Source of the DNA: Armatimonadota bacterium
GTDB lineage: Bacteria; Armatimonadota; UBA5829
Direction: 5' to 3'
NCBI GenBank assembly: GCA_029907315.1
Contig: JARYME010000021.1
Span: forward strand, 1-37,494
Length of the DNA stretch: 37,494 nucleotides
Part shown: positions 2,450-9,200 of the stretch, one piece after another
How the letters are laid out: the number at the start of each line of letters is the position of its first letter
How positions within the stretch are numbered: position 1 is the first letter of the stretch
Notes under the pieces: generated by a model
What the model was told of the DNA's origin: nothing
Databases searched by the model: none
Seen by the model: the letters and a program-made list of their open reading frames with translations, nothing else
Position numbers and translations under genes: made by a program

Positions 2450-3613
2450 ATGAGCTATCTCTTGTTGGAGCCCGTGGACTTTGAGGCGCATAACGAAGAA
2501 GTGAAAAGGGTCTGGGAGGCTTACAATGCGGGCAAACCCATCAGGGTGCCTATGATGCTTGGGGTGAACCCCAGGGTAATCCTCCTGAACCCGGAGCTCA
2601 ACAGCGAAGGGATAACCTTCGCCGATTATATGAGTGATCCAGACATTATGGCTGCTGTTCAGCTCAGGACACAGAGTTATGTGAGGCATAACCTGATGCA
2701 GGATGCAGAAATGGGTCCTCCAAGTACCGGTTGGAGCATCAGTATCGACACGCAGAACACATTTGAGGCTGCATGGTTCGGTGCGATGATTGTCTATAGG
2801 GATCGGCAGGTTCCGGTAACTGAGCCTATGCTCGGCGACGACGACAAACACAAACTGTTCGACCGCGGCATTCCGGATCCTTTCGAGGGAGGAATGGCCG
2901 CCTGGAACTGGCGGTTTTACGAGCATATGCTGGCAAATAAGAGCCACTATGTGCAGGACGGCCAGCCGGTGGTTTCCGTTACTCCAGCGGGTCTTGGAAC
3001 TGACGGGCCTATGACTGTAGCTGCGAATTTGCGGGGTACGACCCAGATATGCGAGGACATCTATGAGGACCCCGACTACGTGCACCAACTGCTCGATTAC
3101 ATAACAAGCGCCACAATAGACCGAATTAAAGCCTACAGAAAAGCCCTTGGTCTGGAATTGAAGCCGCAGTGCTGGTGGTTTGCAGACGACAGCATAGAAT
3201 TGCTGTCTCCGGAAACATACCGGGAGTTTGTGCTACCGTACCACAAAACGCTGCTGAACGAGCTTGCCGGCGAGGGACCGCACAGTGTGCATCTCTGTGG
3301 ATCGGTTGATCATTTGATGTGCATTCTGAAGGAAGAGCTCAACGTTCAGGCGTGGGACGCGGGTTATCCTGTCGACTATGGAGCAATGCGTGCGAAGCTG
3401 GGCCCTGAGTTCCAAATAGCGACCGGTCCCACAGTCAGCACTCTCCTCTACGGATCACCGGAAAGCGTTTGGGATGAAACAAAACGGATACTCTCGAGCG
3501 GGATAATGCAGGGCAAGTTCATCCTGCGCGAGGCGAATAATCTGAGCCCGTGCACACCGGTAGAGAATGTGGCTGCGATGTACGAGTGTGTGCGGCAGTA
3601 CGGTAAGTACTAA
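2450..3613 (+). CDS. URO-D / MtaA-like methyltransferase-family protein
   Basis: A 387-residue cytoplasmic protein of the uroporphyrinogen decarboxylase superfamily. It has no signal peptide. The ADDSIELLSPETYREF block (about 245-260) and the C-terminal barrel half ending in GKFILREANNLSPCTP are typical of URO-D-like proteins. It carries H281-x-C283 (HLCG) and a later C368 (SPCTP). That matches the H-x-C-x(n)-C zinc motif of corrinoid:CoM methyltransferases such as MtaA and CmuA, and true haem-pathway HemE lacks it. A methyl-group or corrinoid-linked role is therefore more likely than haem synthesis, although no corrinoid protein is adjacent. The gene appears monocistronic, between a strong terminator and the sigma-factor operon. 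The exact substrate cannot be deduced. Confidence 0.85.
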   Translation: MSYLLLEPVDFEAHNEEVKRVWEAYNAGKPIRVPMMLGVNPRVILLNPELNSEGITFADYMSDPDIMAAVQLRTQSYVRHNLMQDAEMGPPSTGWSISIDTQNTFEAAWFGAMIVYRDRQVPVTEPMLGDDDKHKLFDRGIPDPFEGGMAAWNWRFYEHMLANKSHYVQDGQPVVSVTPAGLGTDGPMTVAANLRGTTQICEDIYEDPDYVHQLLDYITSATIDRIKAYRKALGLELKPQCWWFADDSIELLSPETYREFVLPYHKTLLNELAGEGPHSVHLCGSVDHLMCILKEELNVQAWDAGYPVDYGAMRAKLGPEFQIATGPTVSTLLYGSPESVWDETKRILSSGIMQGKFILREANNLSPCTPVENVAAMYECVRQYGKY

Positions 3614-3682
3614 GTGTATGCCCTTGAAACCGAGGTCGGCAGGGGTCGTCTAACCTATTAGACTGCCGAATGGGAGCTACCT

Positions 3683-4351
3683 TTGGGCAGATCGGAAGAT
3701 TACGATTTTTCAGCATCGAACGAGATGCTCCTGGAGCTCTGCAAGCTGCAGGACCAGGAGGCTCTGCGCGTACTTTTTAGGAGGCACGAGAAACCCGTAT
3801 ACAACTTGTTGTATCGAATGCTTTCGAACCACGAAGACGCGGAGGAAGCACTGGCCGATGTCTTCGTGAAGGTCTGGCGTGGTGCGGGCTCGTTCAAGGG
3901 TGAATCGAAGTTTACCACCTGGTTGTTCAAAATAGCGGCGAATACAGCCCGTGATTTTCTCCGTGCCAGGATGGTGCGGCGAGAGGTATCCTTGGAGGAT
4001 GGGTCAGTTAGCGAAGGGGAAGTGGCGCGAAGCGCAGCTGCTAAGAGTATAGACCCGGAAGACTGCACTGTGAGAGAAGACGAGCTGAATCGAATTACCG
4101 CTGCGCTTGACGGTCTGAGCGAAGATGACAGATTGCTGGTTACCCTTTACCACTTTCAGGGGTTGGACTATCAGGATATTTCCGAGATTACGGGAATCTC
4201 TGCTAATAACTTGAAGGTTAAGCTTTTCCGTGCACGACAGCGCCTCAAGAAGCTGTGCGAGGAGCTAGATGGAGGCTGTGTGGAAAATGAACTGCGAAGA
4301 AGTACAACCGATTCTTCTGGATTACGGCAAGGGGCGTGTGAGTGGTCCTGA
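3683..4351 (+). CDS. ECF-type RNA polymerase sigma factor (module 1)
   Basis: A 222-residue sigma-70-family protein of ECF architecture. Region 2 spans about 15-95 (EALRVLFRRHEKPVYNL, DAEEALADVFVKVWR, FTTWLFKIAANTARDFLR). An acidic linker follows, then region 4 at about 133-195 (LDGLSEDDRLLVTLYHFQG, YQDISEITGIS, VKLFRARQRLKK). The start is a TTG with GGGAG six bases upstream (3672-3676); no in-frame ATG or GTG fits better. The reading frame runs about 25 residues past region 4 and overlaps the downstream anti-sigma gene by 65 nt, which suggests translational coupling. It probably directs RNA polymerase to envelope-stress or metal-responsive promoters, including possibly its own, under control of the next gene. 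Confidence 0.92.
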   Translation: MGRSEDYDFSASNEMLLELCKLQDQEALRVLFRRHEKPVYNLLYRMLSNHEDAEEALADVFVKVWRGAGSFKGESKFTTWLFKIAANTARDFLRARMVRREVSLEDGSVSEGEVARSAAAKSIDPEDCTVREDELNRITAALDGLSEDDRLLVTLYHFQGLDYQDISEITGISANNLKVKLFRARQRLKKLCEELDGGCVENELRRSTTDSSGLRQGACEWS

Positions 4352-4754
4352 AGCTCGCAAAGTCAAGAATCATCTAGAGAGCTGCAAAACGTGCAAAGCT
4401 TTCCTTGAAGATGAATTGGCGTTCGACATGCGCCTGTCTGCGGTGCCCCCAGTGGAGCCGGTGAACGACGTGTGGGCGCTTGTGAGGGCTAGGACAAAAC
4501 CCAGGAGGCTCAGCCCGGCGGTTTGGTTGGTTAAGATTCGCTCCGCGAGCGCGGCTGCGAAGAGGGCTGCAGCTGCAGTTGCAGTTGTGGGTGTTGCGGC
4601 GGTTATGTTCTACAGCCTCAACTTGAATGAGCCGAATGTTGCTCCCGGTCCGGCTACGACATCGGGTGCCGACAATGTGATAGCGGTAAAGTGGTCTGAT
4701 GATCCTCTCGGAAGTCACCGAGAAGCCCTGGTCGAGTGCTTAGACAAAATGTGA
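4287..4754 (+). CDS. Zinc-binding anti-sigma factor with one membrane helix (module 1)
   Basis: A 155-residue protein counting from ATG 4287, which has GGAGG at 4271-4275 and gives the canonical N-terminus MNCEEVQPILLDY. An in-frame ATG at 4269 is the alternative start. It shows the ZAS zinc-finger pattern C3, H29, C33, C36 (NHLESCKTCK), which in this family clamps an ECF sigma factor in the cytoplasm. An alanine/valine-rich helix at about 95-115 (AAAAVAVVGVAAVMFYSL) spans the inner membrane, leaving about 35 residues in the periplasm. It overlaps the sigma gene and lies 39 nt before the Spy/CnrX-like gene, so the three form a sigma, anti-sigma, periplasmic-sensor unit. Confidence 0.88.
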   Translation: MNCEEVQPILLDYGKGRVSGPEARKVKNHLESCKTCKAFLEDELAFDMRLSAVPPVEPVNDVWALVRARTKPRRLSPAVWLVKIRSASAAAKRAAAAVAVVGVAAVMFYSLNLNEPNVAPGPATTSGADNVIAVKWSDDPLGSHREALVECLDKM

Positions 4755-4793
4755 AATAGATCCAGCTGTGTCGGTTGGCGAGCGGGTTTCGAT

Positions 4794-5573
4794 ATGCGAG
4801 GAATCATCAACAGCAGAGTGTTGATAGTGACGGTATCGCTGATCCTGGCAGTCTTTTCAGCAGTGCTTGCTGAGCCGGGATCCGTAACCGCGAGTCAGCG
4901 GGAGCAGCTGAAATCGCTGGCTGCGGAAATGAGAGACAAGACCCGCCGCGTCAGAGATGAATTGATGCGGGGACGGATGGATCTGTTTGCCGCATATCAG
5001 TCTTGGGATTTGAATGAACAGAGGGTTCGACAAGCAATTTCCAGAATCAGTAGGGCGCAGTCAGCATTATTGAATCTGCACTTGGAGAACCAGCTTGCTC
5101 TGCGCCGCATTCTCAATTCGGAGCAGTTCGCTGAGCTCTCGCGCCAGGTTGTGAGACACTGGGGACACGGTCACAAAGGCCGGTTTGGTCCCTTTGAAGA
5201 AAGCCCTCTAGACAGACTGCCCGATAAGGCGATGTTGGATGCGGCAGGGGTGTCGCCTGAACAGGCCCGAAAGATACTCCAGTTTTCTGATTCACCTCGT
5301 CGACAGGCGATAATCGACAGGTTGCAGCGCTACTCTAAGCAGCTCATAGATCTTTTCTCCTCCTACGATCTGGACACTGCCACAGCACGGCGGCTGATAG
5401 ACAAAATCCACGACTGCCAGTCGGAGCTGTTGGAACTCAACCTCGAGAAGCAGCAGGTCTTAAGGTCGGTGTTGACGCGCGAACAATTCGAGAAGCTGCG
5501 CATCGAGATGTCAAAGCGCTTTCGAATGCCGGCAGGCGGACCTCGTCCCGGGCGTCCTGTTGGCCGCAGGTAA
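4794..5573 (+). CDS. Periplasmic Spy/CnrX-like protein with a tandemly duplicated LTxxQ-type domain
   Basis: A 259-residue protein with a signal peptide (1-26, ending AVLAEP). Two homologous all-helical units follow. Unit 1 (about 41-123) ends in LNSEQFAEL; unit 2 (about 165-243) ends in LTREQFEKL. Both carry a mid-unit pattern of the type QSALLNLHLENQLALRR versus QSELLELNLEKQQVLRS. LTxxQ marks the Spy/CpxP/CnrX family of periplasmic chaperone or metal-sensing helical hairpins, which normally have one unit (about 120-150 residues) acting as a dimer. Here both halves may sit in one chain. The linker has HWGHGH (122-127), a plausible metal site. It follows an ECF sigma/anti-sigma pair, as CnrX does in cnrYXH. 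Metal sensing is inference; the duplication is visible. Confidence 0.78.
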   Translation: MRGIINSRVLIVTVSLILAVFSAVLAEPGSVTASQREQLKSLAAEMRDKTRRVRDELMRGRMDLFAAYQSWDLNEQRVRQAISRISRAQSALLNLHLENQLALRRILNSEQFAELSRQVVRHWGHGHKGRFGPFEESPLDRLPDKAMLDAAGVSPEQARKILQFSDSPRRQAIIDRLQRYSKQLIDLFSSYDLDTATARRLIDKIHDCQSELLELNLEKQQVLRSVLTREQFEKLRIEMSKRFRMPAGGPRPGRPVGRR

Positions 5574-5842: not shown

Positions 5843-6490
5843 TTGGTTGGAGCATGTTACAATTGGGCCGGGGGTGACACCATAACAGCTGCCGGCAAGG
5901 ATCTTCTGGGCGCGAAGCTTCAGGAGAAACCAGATGCCACACTAGTGGCGCGGACAAAAGAAGGGGACGTCGAGGCTTTTGCGGAGCTGGTTGCGCGTCA
6001 CCAAGCCTCTGTCTACAGCGTCGTCTCGCGAATGATCTCGAGCCGTGATGACACGGAAGACATTGTCCAGGAGATCTTCGTCCGTGCATTCAAGTCGATT
6101 GGATGCTTCAAGCAAGATTCGTCGTTCGGCACGTGGATCTACCGGATCGCCGTTAATACCGCTATCAAGCACATGAGGGGATCAAAAATCCGCTCTGCCG
6201 CTTCTATCGATGATCCGGACAGTGGGCTTTCAGATACGCTCACGGACGGCGAATCTGACCGCCCGGGCGATGCGGCGGAAAAAGCGGAGCGCAGTGAAGC
6301 AGTCAGGCGGGCGGTCCAGATGCTGCCGGAGCATCATAGAGCTGTCGTCGTGCTTCACTACTTTGAGAACCTGAGCTGTGCTGAAATTGCGGAGATTATG
6401 GACTGTTCGGTGGGAACCGTTTGGTCGAGGCTTCACTATGCTTGCAAGAAGTTGAAGGGCGAGCTTTCATGGCTGAATTCGGAGTGCTGA
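5843..6490 (+). CDS. ECF-type RNA polymerase sigma factor (module 2)
   Basis: An ECF sigma factor of about 215 residues in the RpoE/SigW style. Region 2 begins at DATLVARTKEGDVEAF (about 31-46) and includes DDTEDIVQEIFVRAFKSI and FGTWIYRIAVNTAIKH. Region 4 includes MLPEHHRAVVVLHYFENLS and CAEIAEIMDCSVGTVWSRLHYACKKL. The start is uncertain. TTG 5843 is the most upstream start codon in frame (a stop lies at 5792) but has a weak Shine-Dalgarno. Later options are CTG 5906, or GTG 5945, which would cut into the conserved N-terminal helix. It lies 18 nt before its anti-sigma gene, so the two are co-transcribed. It is not a close copy of the first sigma factor. Confidence 0.9.
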   Translation: MVGACYNWAGGDTITAAGKDLLGAKLQEKPDATLVARTKEGDVEAFAELVARHQASVYSVVSRMISSRDDTEDIVQEIFVRAFKSIGCFKQDSSFGTWIYRIAVNTAIKHMRGSKIRSAASIDDPDSGLSDTLTDGESDRPGDAAEKAERSEAVRRAVQMLPEHHRAVVVLHYFENLSCAEIAEIMDCSVGTVWSRLHYACKKLKGELSWLNSEC

Positions 6491-6508: not shown

Positions 6509-7456
6509 ATGCTGTGCAGAACGTGCAGGCGTTTGCTGGTGGGATATGCCGAAGAAGAGCTGGACGAGCGCACGCGATTGAAGGTCGAGGCACACTTGGC
6601 TCGCTGTGGCGCGTGTTCATCGGAGTTTGAGACGGTTCGTAAGGTTGGGTGCGCTCTCAGAAAAGCAGATATTCCGGCTGCGACGCCGGCACCTGATTCC
6701 GCGTTGGGAATAATTGCACGCGTTAGCGCGGAGGTTGGTCGACAGCGTCGATACCCGCGGCTGCGGCTGACTCAGATAGCTTGTGCTTGGGCGGCTGCAC
6801 TGTTTGTCGGAGTGGTGGGTTATGGACTGCTTGCGCCGGGTACATTCCAGCGACCGGAGCCAACCATAACTCGCCCGCTGGCTATCGAATCTCATGTGAG
6901 CCGCGATTCGGGTAGTGCTCCGGCGAACGCCGGCGGGAGTGCAGCTGACCAGGTAGGGGTGGGCAAACCTTTGTCCAGTTCCGGTTCGTTGGGTGCGCCT
7001 GTCAAGACGGTACGCGTAGAGACTTCGACGCCGCGCCACAAGAGGTTCCATATCGGCCAAGTGCGCGTAGCGGCTGCGAGAGATTTGTCGGACAAGGGCG
7101 CAGCAAGAATGGCGGTTGCGCAATCGGGTGTCGTTGGTGCGAAATCGGAGGTGGAAGCTTTGGCTGACATCAAGTCAGGTGCAGACGGTGGGGCCGGTAG
7201 CAGCAGAGGCGAAAATCTGTCGGCCATACCGAAGCCTGTGGACACGGAATCACGTCGCCCAATTCTCTATGGCGACTACAGCCGGCCGGAAACGTCAGCA
7301 TCTGCCTTAGCTGGGCTATCGACGCCCGCCTCCGGGTTCGAAGTGCAGATGGCAGCGGCGGAACCGGCCGGTGCTGGATCGAACTCCGAGTCGATAGTGG
7401 ATGCCCTTACTGAAAGTGAAGGCGTGTGGCAGGTAGCCTTGTTCAGTTATCCGTAG
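6509..7456 (+). CDS. Zinc-finger anti-sigma factor with a long periplasmic domain (module 2)
   Basis: A 315-residue protein. The cytoplasmic N-terminus has C3, C6, H29, C33 and C36 (AHLARCGACSSEF), with spacing identical to the ZAS finger of module 1. A transmembrane helix lies at about 88-109 (ACAWAAALFVGVVGYGLLA). About 200 residues follow on the periplasmic side, rich in Ala, Gly, Ser and Val with low complexity, and no recognised domain. It likely sequesters the sigma factor encoded just upstream and releases it on an envelope signal, perhaps by regulated proteolysis as for RsiW/RseA (family knowledge). The gap to the downstream TPR gene is only 22 nt, so all three are probably one operon. 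Confidence 0.85.
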   Translation: MLCRTCRRLLVGYAEEELDERTRLKVEAHLARCGACSSEFETVRKVGCALRKADIPAATPAPDSALGIIARVSAEVGRQRRYPRLRLTQIACAWAAALFVGVVGYGLLAPGTFQRPEPTITRPLAIESHVSRDSGSAPANAGGSAADQVGVGKPLSSSGSLGAPVKTVRVETSTPRHKRFHIGQVRVAAARDLSDKGAARMAVAQSGVVGAKSEVEALADIKSGADGGAGSSRGENLSAIPKPVDTESRRPILYGDYSRPETSASALAGLSTPASGFEVQMAAAEPAGAGSNSESIVDALTESEGVWQVALFSYP

Positions 7457-7478: not shown

Positions 7479-9200
7479 ATGGATCGAATACGCTTAGTAT
7501 TATCTTCGAGTGCAGCCTTTGTAATCCTGCTGGTGGGACATGCGGCCTGCTCGGCGTCTTCGCCGGACGCATTTGCCGAAGGGTTGGCTCTGTTCAACAG
7601 GGGCGAGTTGGCGCACGCAGCGTCACGGCTTGCGGCGGCTGCTGCAGAACGGCCTCACGATGCTGCGGTAAGGCTAACCGCGGGCGTTGCTCTCGCGAAC
7701 CTCAAGCTCTACCAAGAAGCCGCGGAACACTTCGAGGCGGTCGTTCGTGCGAACTCGGAAGTGTCCATAGCCGGTTTTCTCTTGGAAGCGTTATATGTGG
7801 AAATGGGACAGCGAGTCAAGACAGGTGGCACAGCGTCCGGAGGCGCCGATACAGCTGCTTCTCGCGAACTGCTCGCGCGGGCTTTGCTCAAGTATCCGCA
7901 AAACGCCATAGCGCACGTTCTCTTGGGCGATCTCTATCAGCTCGAAGGAAAGTTCGATTCGGCAAAGCGGGAGTATGAGCTGGCTCGTAATCTCGCTCCC
8001 AAGTGGCCTAAGCCGGTCTTCAATCTTGGCTTGGCACATTTGCGGACCGATCCAGTCCTTGCTGAATGGGATTTCCGCACGGCGATTGCGATGGATCCGT
8101 CGAGCAGGCGGGCATACCTTTGGCTGGGTGACGCACTGGCGGCGCAGAACAGGTTCGAAGATGCTTTTCAGGCTTACCGCACCGCCGCGTCAGACGACTC
8201 CCTCTTCGCAGAGGCGCAGACGCGAATAGGGAACATCTACCTTCGCCTTGGCAACCTGAGGTTGGCTGAGGAAGCTTTTGCTCTTGCCGCTGCGAAGTCT
8301 TCAGATGCGCGTCCGATTGCGGGCCAAGCTCAGGTGTTTCAATCGCAAGGTTTACTGCGGCACGCTGAGAGAAAGTATGCCGAAGCGAGTGATATTTTGG
8401 CTCTGAATAAGGCTCCGGCTCCTGCTCGGGCTGTGGTGCAGAGGCAACTGGGTGTCGTTCAGCTTGAGCAAGGAAAGCTGACAGAAGCCTTGACCAATCT
8501 CCAGCGCAGCTATGAGCTGCATCCGACTCTCGATAACGCAAGCGCTGTGGCAGCTGCACAGATGGAGGCGGGCAAGCTGTCGGAGGCGGTGGCTCAAGCT
8601 GAGGAGCGTCTCGCCCGGGAGCCCAAGAGTACTGCAGTAATGGTCTATCTGCTGGCTGCATACCGGGTCTCTGGAGACCATTCACAACGCATTCGGATTG
8701 CCAAGCTCCTGGAAAAGGTGGATCCTGCGGGTTCGGTTGTGTGGTCTACGGAGATCGGCGAAGCGCAGGCGGCTCTGGGGGCAATTCAAGAATCGCTCGA
8801 CGCATACGCCGAAGCACTGGAAGCGGGGGACGTCTCCAGCTGGGCTGTTGTTGCGCGCTCAGCAAGATCGGCAGGTGTGCTCAGACAACTTTCCGAGCGG
8901 TTCGAAAATATGATGCGAACCTCACCTTCAGAAAAAACCGCCCTAATCCTTTATGAGCTGAGAGCTGCCGGTCAGGATACCGAAGGGCTAGTTTCGGTCG
9001 CAGAAAGGCTTGTCAGTCTTTACCCCGACCGCACGACGAATTGGTTGCGCTTGGGGCAAGCGTACGAGCAGGCAGGAAGGAAGGACCAGGCGGTTGGCGC
9101 ATATCTGAGGGCCGCTGCCGGGTCGGATCCGGATGTAGCTGCTGCAGCTAGGGCGCGCGTAGAGAGCTTGCGCAAAGCCGATGACGCTCAGAACCCGTGA
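7479..9200 (+). CDS. Exported tetratricopeptide-repeat protein
   Basis: A 573-residue protein with an N-terminal signal sequence (about 1-27, a hydrophobic run then HAACSASS). A Cys at 24 gives a poor lipobox (HAAC), so lipidation is uncertain. The rest is a near-continuous array of TPR helical hairpins, for example AHVLLGDLYQLEGKFDSAKREY, AYLWLGDALAAQNRFEDAFQAY, RIGNIYLRLGNLRLAEEAF and WLRLGQAYEQAGRKDQAVGAY. TPR arrays act as protein-protein scaffolds. Placement behind an ECF sigma/anti-sigma pair suggests an envelope assembly or quality-control role regulated by that module, which is inference. The array has no enzymatic domain. Confidence 0.85.
   Translation: MDRIRLVLSSSAAFVILLVGHAACSASSPDAFAEGLALFNRGELAHAASRLAAAAAERPHDAAVRLTAGVALANLKLYQEAAEHFEAVVRANSEVSIAGFLLEALYVEMGQRVKTGGTASGGADTAASRELLARALLKYPQNAIAHVLLGDLYQLEGKFDSAKREYELARNLAPKWPKPVFNLGLAHLRTDPVLAEWDFRTAIAMDPSSRRAYLWLGDALAAQNRFEDAFQAYRTAASDDSLFAEAQTRIGNIYLRLGNLRLAEEAFALAAAKSSDARPIAGQAQVFQSQGLLRHAERKYAEASDILALNKAPAPARAVVQRQLGVVQLEQGKLTEALTNLQRSYELHPTLDNASAVAAAQMEAGKLSEAVAQAEERLAREPKSTAVMVYLLAAYRVSGDHSQRIRIAKLLEKVDPAGSVVWSTEIGEAQAALGAIQESLDAYAEALEAGDVSSWAVVARSARSAGVLRQLSERFENMMRTSPSEKTALILYELRAAGQDTEGLVSVAERLVSLYPDRTTNWLRLGQAYEQAGRKDQAVGAYLRAAAGSDPDVAAAARARVESLRKADDAQNP

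Follow-up and report, generated by a model that had tools for sequence, protein, structure and literature searches.

A conserved ECF sigma/anti-sigma operon of Armatimonadota with two fused Spy-like units in its sensor

How Spy/CpxP-type proteins came to act as both chaperones and sensors is an open question. It is raised again by a locus of an Armatimonadota bacterium in which an ECF sigma factor and a membrane anti-sigma factor are encoded next to a secreted protein with two such units in one chain: what does this third protein sense, if it is a sensor at all? We analysed the locus in its surrounding stretch of DNA (the window, 37,494 nucleotides) and in its relatives across the phylum. The three-gene unit is a real, conserved, fused-dimer version of the known ECF/anti-sigma/Spy-like sensor switch.

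Gene content of the operon

Sigma factor, anti-sigma factor and sensor are encoded by three genes on the same strand in the window's list of open reading frames, with the following features:

3625-3652, + strand: ECF-type operon promoter TGAAACC-N15-CGTCTA, from aligned upstream regions of relatives
3683-4351, + strand: ECF sigma factor gene (Sigma70_r2, Sigma70_r4_2, TIGR02937)
4287-4351, + strand: frame overlap of sigma and anti-sigma genes, 65 nt
4287-4754, + strand: membrane anti-sigma factor with ZAS domain (zf-HC2, H29-x3-C33-x2-C36)
4689-4751, + strand: acidic C-terminal motif KWSDDPLG...LDKM of the anti-sigma periplasmic tail, from conservation; proposed docking peptide
4794-5573, + strand: two-unit Spy/CpxP-like sensor, secreted, 259 aa (Metal_resist, model)
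4794-4871, + strand: sensor signal sequence, AVLA before residue 27 (sequence; low-confidence helix 4-26 in the model)
4890-5159, + strand: sensor N-unit, helices 33-68, 75-106 and 109-122 (profiles, model)
5160-5225, + strand: sensor linker, unconserved and of low model confidence (alignment, model)
5226-5519, + strand: sensor C-unit, helices 145-150, 155-165, 168-188, 195-226 and 229-242 (profiles, model)

The original prediction was made for 4287-5573, which holds the anti-sigma and sensor genes; the sigma gene begins upstream at 3683. Its TTG start there is unproven and an ATG at 3725 is possible, and the anti-sigma start was placed at the methionine preceding the conserved cysteine (4287), the longest ORF beginning at 4269. 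Of 11 two-unit loci, 9 have an overlap of 65 nt between the two genes; in the other two it is 59 and 74 nt. The conserved C terminus of the sigma factor (STTDSSGLRQGACEWS-like) may just reflect the anti-sigma N terminus conserved in the other frame. An Rfam search of the window gave 0 matches, and PADLOC had no match for the sigma, anti-sigma or sensor protein.

The product of 3683-4351 contains both Sigma-70 region 2 (Sigma70_r2, 64 bits, cut-off 24) and region 4 (Sigma70_r4_2, 53.5 bits, cut-off 25.7) of an ECF sigma factor and matches TIGR02937 at 115 bits; the ECF superfamily model is the only one over its cut-off among the NCBIfam rows listed for the operon proteins. The anti-sigma factor matches zf-HC2 (27.7 bits against a cut-off of 22.2); its sequence reads as hydrophobic from about residue 94 to 111, and a 44-residue tail follows. 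Its Hx3Cx2C motif is kept in all 26 anti-sigma factors examined, the window's included, and by this N-terminal zinc motif followed by a predicted membrane stretch it is assigned to class I (ZAS). The Pfam matches and the hydrophobic stretch bear out the original description of an ECF sigma factor, a ZAS anti-sigma factor with a membrane segment and a Spy/CnrX-like periplasmic protein.

The anti-sigma tail consists of a variable stretch and then a conserved acidic tip. DDP occurs in this tip in 11 of 12 anti-sigma factors of two-unit loci and in 5 of the 10 single-unit ones compared (out of 18). In the two-unit set the last 24 anti-sigma residues carry a net charge of -1 to -6 and the sensors are strongly basic, with +12 to +22. 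The structure model of the anti-sigma factor was unusable (pLDDT 50.7, tail helix at very low confidence).

The operon is preceded by a gene for a URO-D-family protein (2450-3613), a similar one being present in the nearest relative (L014, 2169-3506). Directly 3' of it lie a second ECF sigma factor (5843-6490, 215 aa) and a second ZAS protein (6509-7456, 315 aa), a pair not seen beside the system in L014, and then a TPR protein (7479-9200).

Two Spy-like units in one chain

By profile, the sensor belongs to the Spy/CpxP-like family. Metal_resist matches over two stretches (37.3 bits, cut-off 29.2), LTXXQ falls under its cut-off (20.8 against 24.3 bits), and the score with the Spy equivalog model PRK10455 of NCBIfam is 30.2 bits against a cut-off of 174. 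Sequence profiles reach Spy (E 1.1e-7 for the sensor profile), ZraP, CpxP and VirG-like chains.

The two halves of the chain are copies of one unit. Plain BLASTP between them found no match, so Smith-Waterman alignment with shuffles and a profile comparison were used instead. The halves align with a score of 112, against 29.7±5.1 for shuffled sequences (0 of 2,000 as high), and profiles of the N- and C-units from 13 full-length two-unit proteins, the window's included, match over 91 columns with a probability of 99.5 and E 1.3e-22. The predicted duplication is confirmed by these values; the identity of N- and C-unit inside single proteins is 19-34%. An AlphaFold2 model built from two sequences only (pLDDT 75, pTM 0.72) predicts, in each half, the same long-helix pair plus a short helix. 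Spy itself, as described in an excerpt of PMC3910116, is a homodimer whose chains hold one unit each. A Spy-type dimer fused in one chain is the natural reading that the sequences suggest, because the same cluster outside the order carries a single-unit form.

Residues Q100, R104 and F112 (window numbering) are nearly invariant across the sensor units in both halves. Among 35 other Spy-like proteins of the family that passed a length filter, Q100 and F112 are mostly missing and R104 is common (25/35). Of 13 N-units, 10 have H96 and 12 have Q100, with Q at the equivalent place in 13 of 13 C-units, and H206 occurs in 9 of 13 two-unit proteins, being absent in families f2 and f3. The window's sensor has no histidine at residues 30-93 and 140-205. 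In the profile alignment, N-unit H96 and Q100 fall on the H and Q of AHMETQ in E. coli Spy, which we take to be Spy H96 and Q100; an H96L Spy chain agrees with this numbering. In Spy these two residues adjoin hydrophobic patches on the concave face, where clients bind, according to the same excerpt (PMC3910116).

Linkage, promoters and likely targets

Sensor matches at 1e-6 were found in 32 of the 291 genomes of the phylum. By a profile search, the order has the two-unit form in 13 of its 19 genomes, and the rest of the class (9 genomes) yielded none. Outside the order 19 genomes match, each with a single unit (proteins read as single-unit in 16 of them, ORFs of 175-188 codons in the other three). 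Sigma, ZAS anti-sigma and sensor genes are adjacent in all 11 two-unit loci clear of contig ends, so the three-gene linkage that had been predicted is indeed conserved. Of the 13 two-unit loci 11 have the full cluster, as do 18 of the 19 single-unit loci, and all three exceptions, two of them two-unit, are cut by contig ends. Within the family, the sensor is present in 9 of 15 genomes and a sigma ortholog (E<1e-48) in eight of the same nine; in the ninth the sigma locus is cut by a contig end. The remaining six genomes have neither.

In a tree of 45 units, the C-units of family f1 form one set (98/94) and those of f2 and f3 another (99/91). The N-units do not form a single set, and the tree is compatible with one or several fusions. 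A second cluster type is seen in L022 (5356-7658), where an ECF sigma factor and a ZAS protein accompany two separate, neighbouring Spy-like genes, the first product apparently membrane-anchored and the second secreted; similar Spy-like pairs occur in L104, L111 and L118. Such pairs are possibly the unfused counterpart of the two-unit sensor.

Before the sigma gene, the relatives have a common pattern of TGAAACC (f1) or TGTAACC (f2 and f3), about 15 bases and CGTCTA, with single deviations in L017 (TGAAACT) and L045 (CGTCTG). This conserved promoter marks the operon as one that its own ECF sigma factor would autoregulate. The window's site at 3625-3652 is the sole perfect TGAAAC-N16-CGTCTA in its genome. 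With at most one mismatch the pattern has 10 matches there versus 19 for the reversed control, which is no excess, so in that genome the search gives no evidence of targets other than the operon; imperfect CGTAAC sites are found at two of its Spy-like genes (contigs C121 and C129).

Across the order the promoter leads further. The perfect pattern TGWAACC-N15-CGTCTA occurs at 17 sites in the 19 genomes, versus 3 for the reversed pattern, and every genome with a perfect site carries the system (11 of the 13 system-bearing genomes). Nine of these sites are the operon promoter. Half of the other eight precede secreted Spy-like genes (two in genome G005, one each in G010 and G242), with a chance of about 1e-12 under a crude uniform model, and half do not lie at Spy-like genes. 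We also compared loci fetched by their Pfam matches, leaving out ORFs with less than 150 bases upstream, two-unit sensors and motif-fetched loci. Sites of at least 11/12 precede 8 of 53 Spy-like genes versus 0 of 107 neighbouring ORFs (Fisher 1e-4), and reversed and permuted control motifs at this threshold give 0; at 10/12 the counts are 9 of 53 and 5 of 107.

The variant TGTAAC-N16-CGTCTR has 19 sites versus 16 in the control, barely above it. Two of the 19 are operon promoters and eight lie before Spy-like genes; of these eight, one, in G242, also counts among the perfect sites, and another lies in genome G003, which lacks this sigma factor. Other ECF factors probably share these promoter sites. 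As judged from the sites, such promoters favour Spy-like genes as targets. Among the sites examined, none was seen to precede a metal transporter.

Several further genes carry related sites. L161 (1527-2204), L083 (1559-2194), L100 (1578-2195) and L221 encode secreted Spy-like proteins in which LTXXQ-like stretches occur more than once and the middle is of the EEKQSKI type; the ECF-type promoter repeatedly precedes their genes. In G005, contig C101 (L096, 1548-3026), a perfect TGAAACC-N15-CGTCTA precedes a PSCyt2/PSD1 (DUF1549/DUF1553) protein, and TGTAAC-type sites in two genomes (L233 and L245) lie before genes of secreted proteins that, on visual inspection, resemble STN/secretin proteins.

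What the switch may sense

Our preferred reading, with a probability of roughly 0.52, is that the operon encodes an autoregulated switch for envelope stress: the two fused Spy-like units, as a pseudo-dimer, would hold the anti-sigma tail and be titrated by unfolded clients, and the output would be Spy-like chaperones. This reading brings together the observed gene content, repeat, linkage, conserved promoter, tail motif and co-occurrence of sigma factor and sensor. What the switch monitors is probably damage to proteins of the cell envelope, not metals.

In the resting state, the membrane anti-sigma factor would keep the ECF sigma factor in the cytoplasm through its ZAS domain, and on the periplasmic side the secreted two-unit sensor would bind the anti-sigma tail at its acidic tip. 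This docking is proposed because the conserved tip is acidic and the sensor strongly basic. Under folding stress, the presumed signal, unfolded clients would compete for the sensor's cradle; the tail would then be exposed, probably to a site-1 protease, and the sigma factor released. The model for the cleavage step is RseA, which is attacked once RseB lets go, as an excerpt of PMC8103513 describes. The freed sigma factor would transcribe its own operon and, in several relatives, genes for separate Spy-like periplasmic proteins; in the window's genome any target beyond the operon would be putative. In a bolder version, which we hold to be less likely than not, a single molecule serves as the chaperone-titration switch, an asymmetric covalent Spy pseudo-dimer whose cradle releases the acidic tail tip on client binding, so that its occupancy is the signal and Spy-like proteins are the output.

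The known systems share parts of this design. Like RpoE-RseA-RseB as described in PMC8103513, the system combines an ECF sigma factor, a membrane anti-sigma factor and an operon-encoded periplasmic protein as proposed tail guard; the guard here would be Spy-like and not RseB-like. Like CnrYXH, it links an ECF sigma factor to a membrane anti-sigma factor and a periplasmic, all-helical sensor. CnrX senses Co/Ni as a dimer and requires Met123 (excerpt of PMC7689651), and CnrY is a class II anti-sigma factor (excerpt of PMC7406223), whereas the anti-sigma factor here is of the zinc-motif class I. Moreover, the sensor has two units per chain, unlike the single-unit CnrX, and the likely extra targets are Spy-like proteins rather than an RND efflux pump. 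Sequence profiles, including a wider one, did not reach CnrX at E up to 10. Because of the anti-sigma class, the two-unit sensor and this missing sequence match, we have not filed the system as CnrYXH. With Spy, CpxP and ZraP the sensor shares unit length, modelled helices, LTxxQ-type ends and the H96/Q100 positions. Spy is under Cpx/Bae control, and it differs in that the units here are fused and genetically tied to an ECF/anti-sigma pair.

A CnrX-like metal sensor, in which metal bound at the helical units (for example around H96/Q100 and H206) and not in the linker alters the pseudo-dimer and signals to the anti-sigma factor, is in our judgement rather unlikely. Metal_resist does score above its cut-off, H96 and H206 are frequent, and the H-x3-Q spacing of the sensor equals that of the CnrX ligands H119 and M123. 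In the model, the predicted N-unit and signal helix are superposable on CnrX over its full length, and VIA-align 2 aligns CnrX entries over 106-111 residues with Z 7.2-7.7 (NccX, 6.5). These values are, however, tied with those of unrelated helical bundles, and Foldseek against the PDB found nothing at E<=1e-3 for the sensor model; Spy itself is absent from the VIA-align 2 fold matches listed, though the sequence profile and modelled helices fit it. CnrX has no sequence match, H96 is found in Spy too, H206 is missing in f2 and f3, the window's chain lacks histidines over long stretches of both units, and the promoter sites examined lead to no metal transporter.

We regard it as unlikely that the third protein is not the sensor but a chaperone made as output, in one transcript with its regulator, proteases reading the anti-sigma tail by itself. 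An operon product can simply be the response, and similar promoters repeatedly have Spy-like genes as their likely targets. The strict three-gene linkage across the phylum and the joint absence of sensor and sigma factor suggest, however, a regulatory role; Q100 and F112 are kept in the sensor units and rare in other Spy-like proteins, and the conserved tip of the anti-sigma tail needs a partner.

That the fused dimer is a distinct metal sensor binding its metal at the HWGHGH linker, as originally proposed, is highly improbable and is not supported, because this motif, with its three histidines at residues 122-127 (beginning at the last residue of the N-unit), is found only in the window, reduced to HAGH in the nearest relative and without anything comparable in the other 11 two-unit proteins, and the linker (123-137) is modelled with low confidence. 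The broader idea of a fused CnrX-type dimer sensing metal or folding stress is partly supported: the duplicated unit and its genetic tie to an ECF sigma and a ZAS anti-sigma factor hold, a fused dimer is the natural reading, and folding stress is the better half of that proposal. Its metal sensing is weakened because CnrX is unreached by sequence, the anti-sigma factor is class I, the extra promoter sites lead to Spy-like genes and no metal transporter was seen.

Among the papers listed by our searches of open-licence PMC, none was seen to report a Spy/CnrX-like sensor of two fused units. One phylum holds single-unit and fused forms in the same three-gene cluster, which bears on how such proteins became chaperones and sensors. 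The halves of the fused pseudo-dimer can be mutated separately, unlike those of the homodimers Spy or CnrX; the conserved anti-sigma tip is a ready test peptide, and the promoter motif leads to Spy-like genes.
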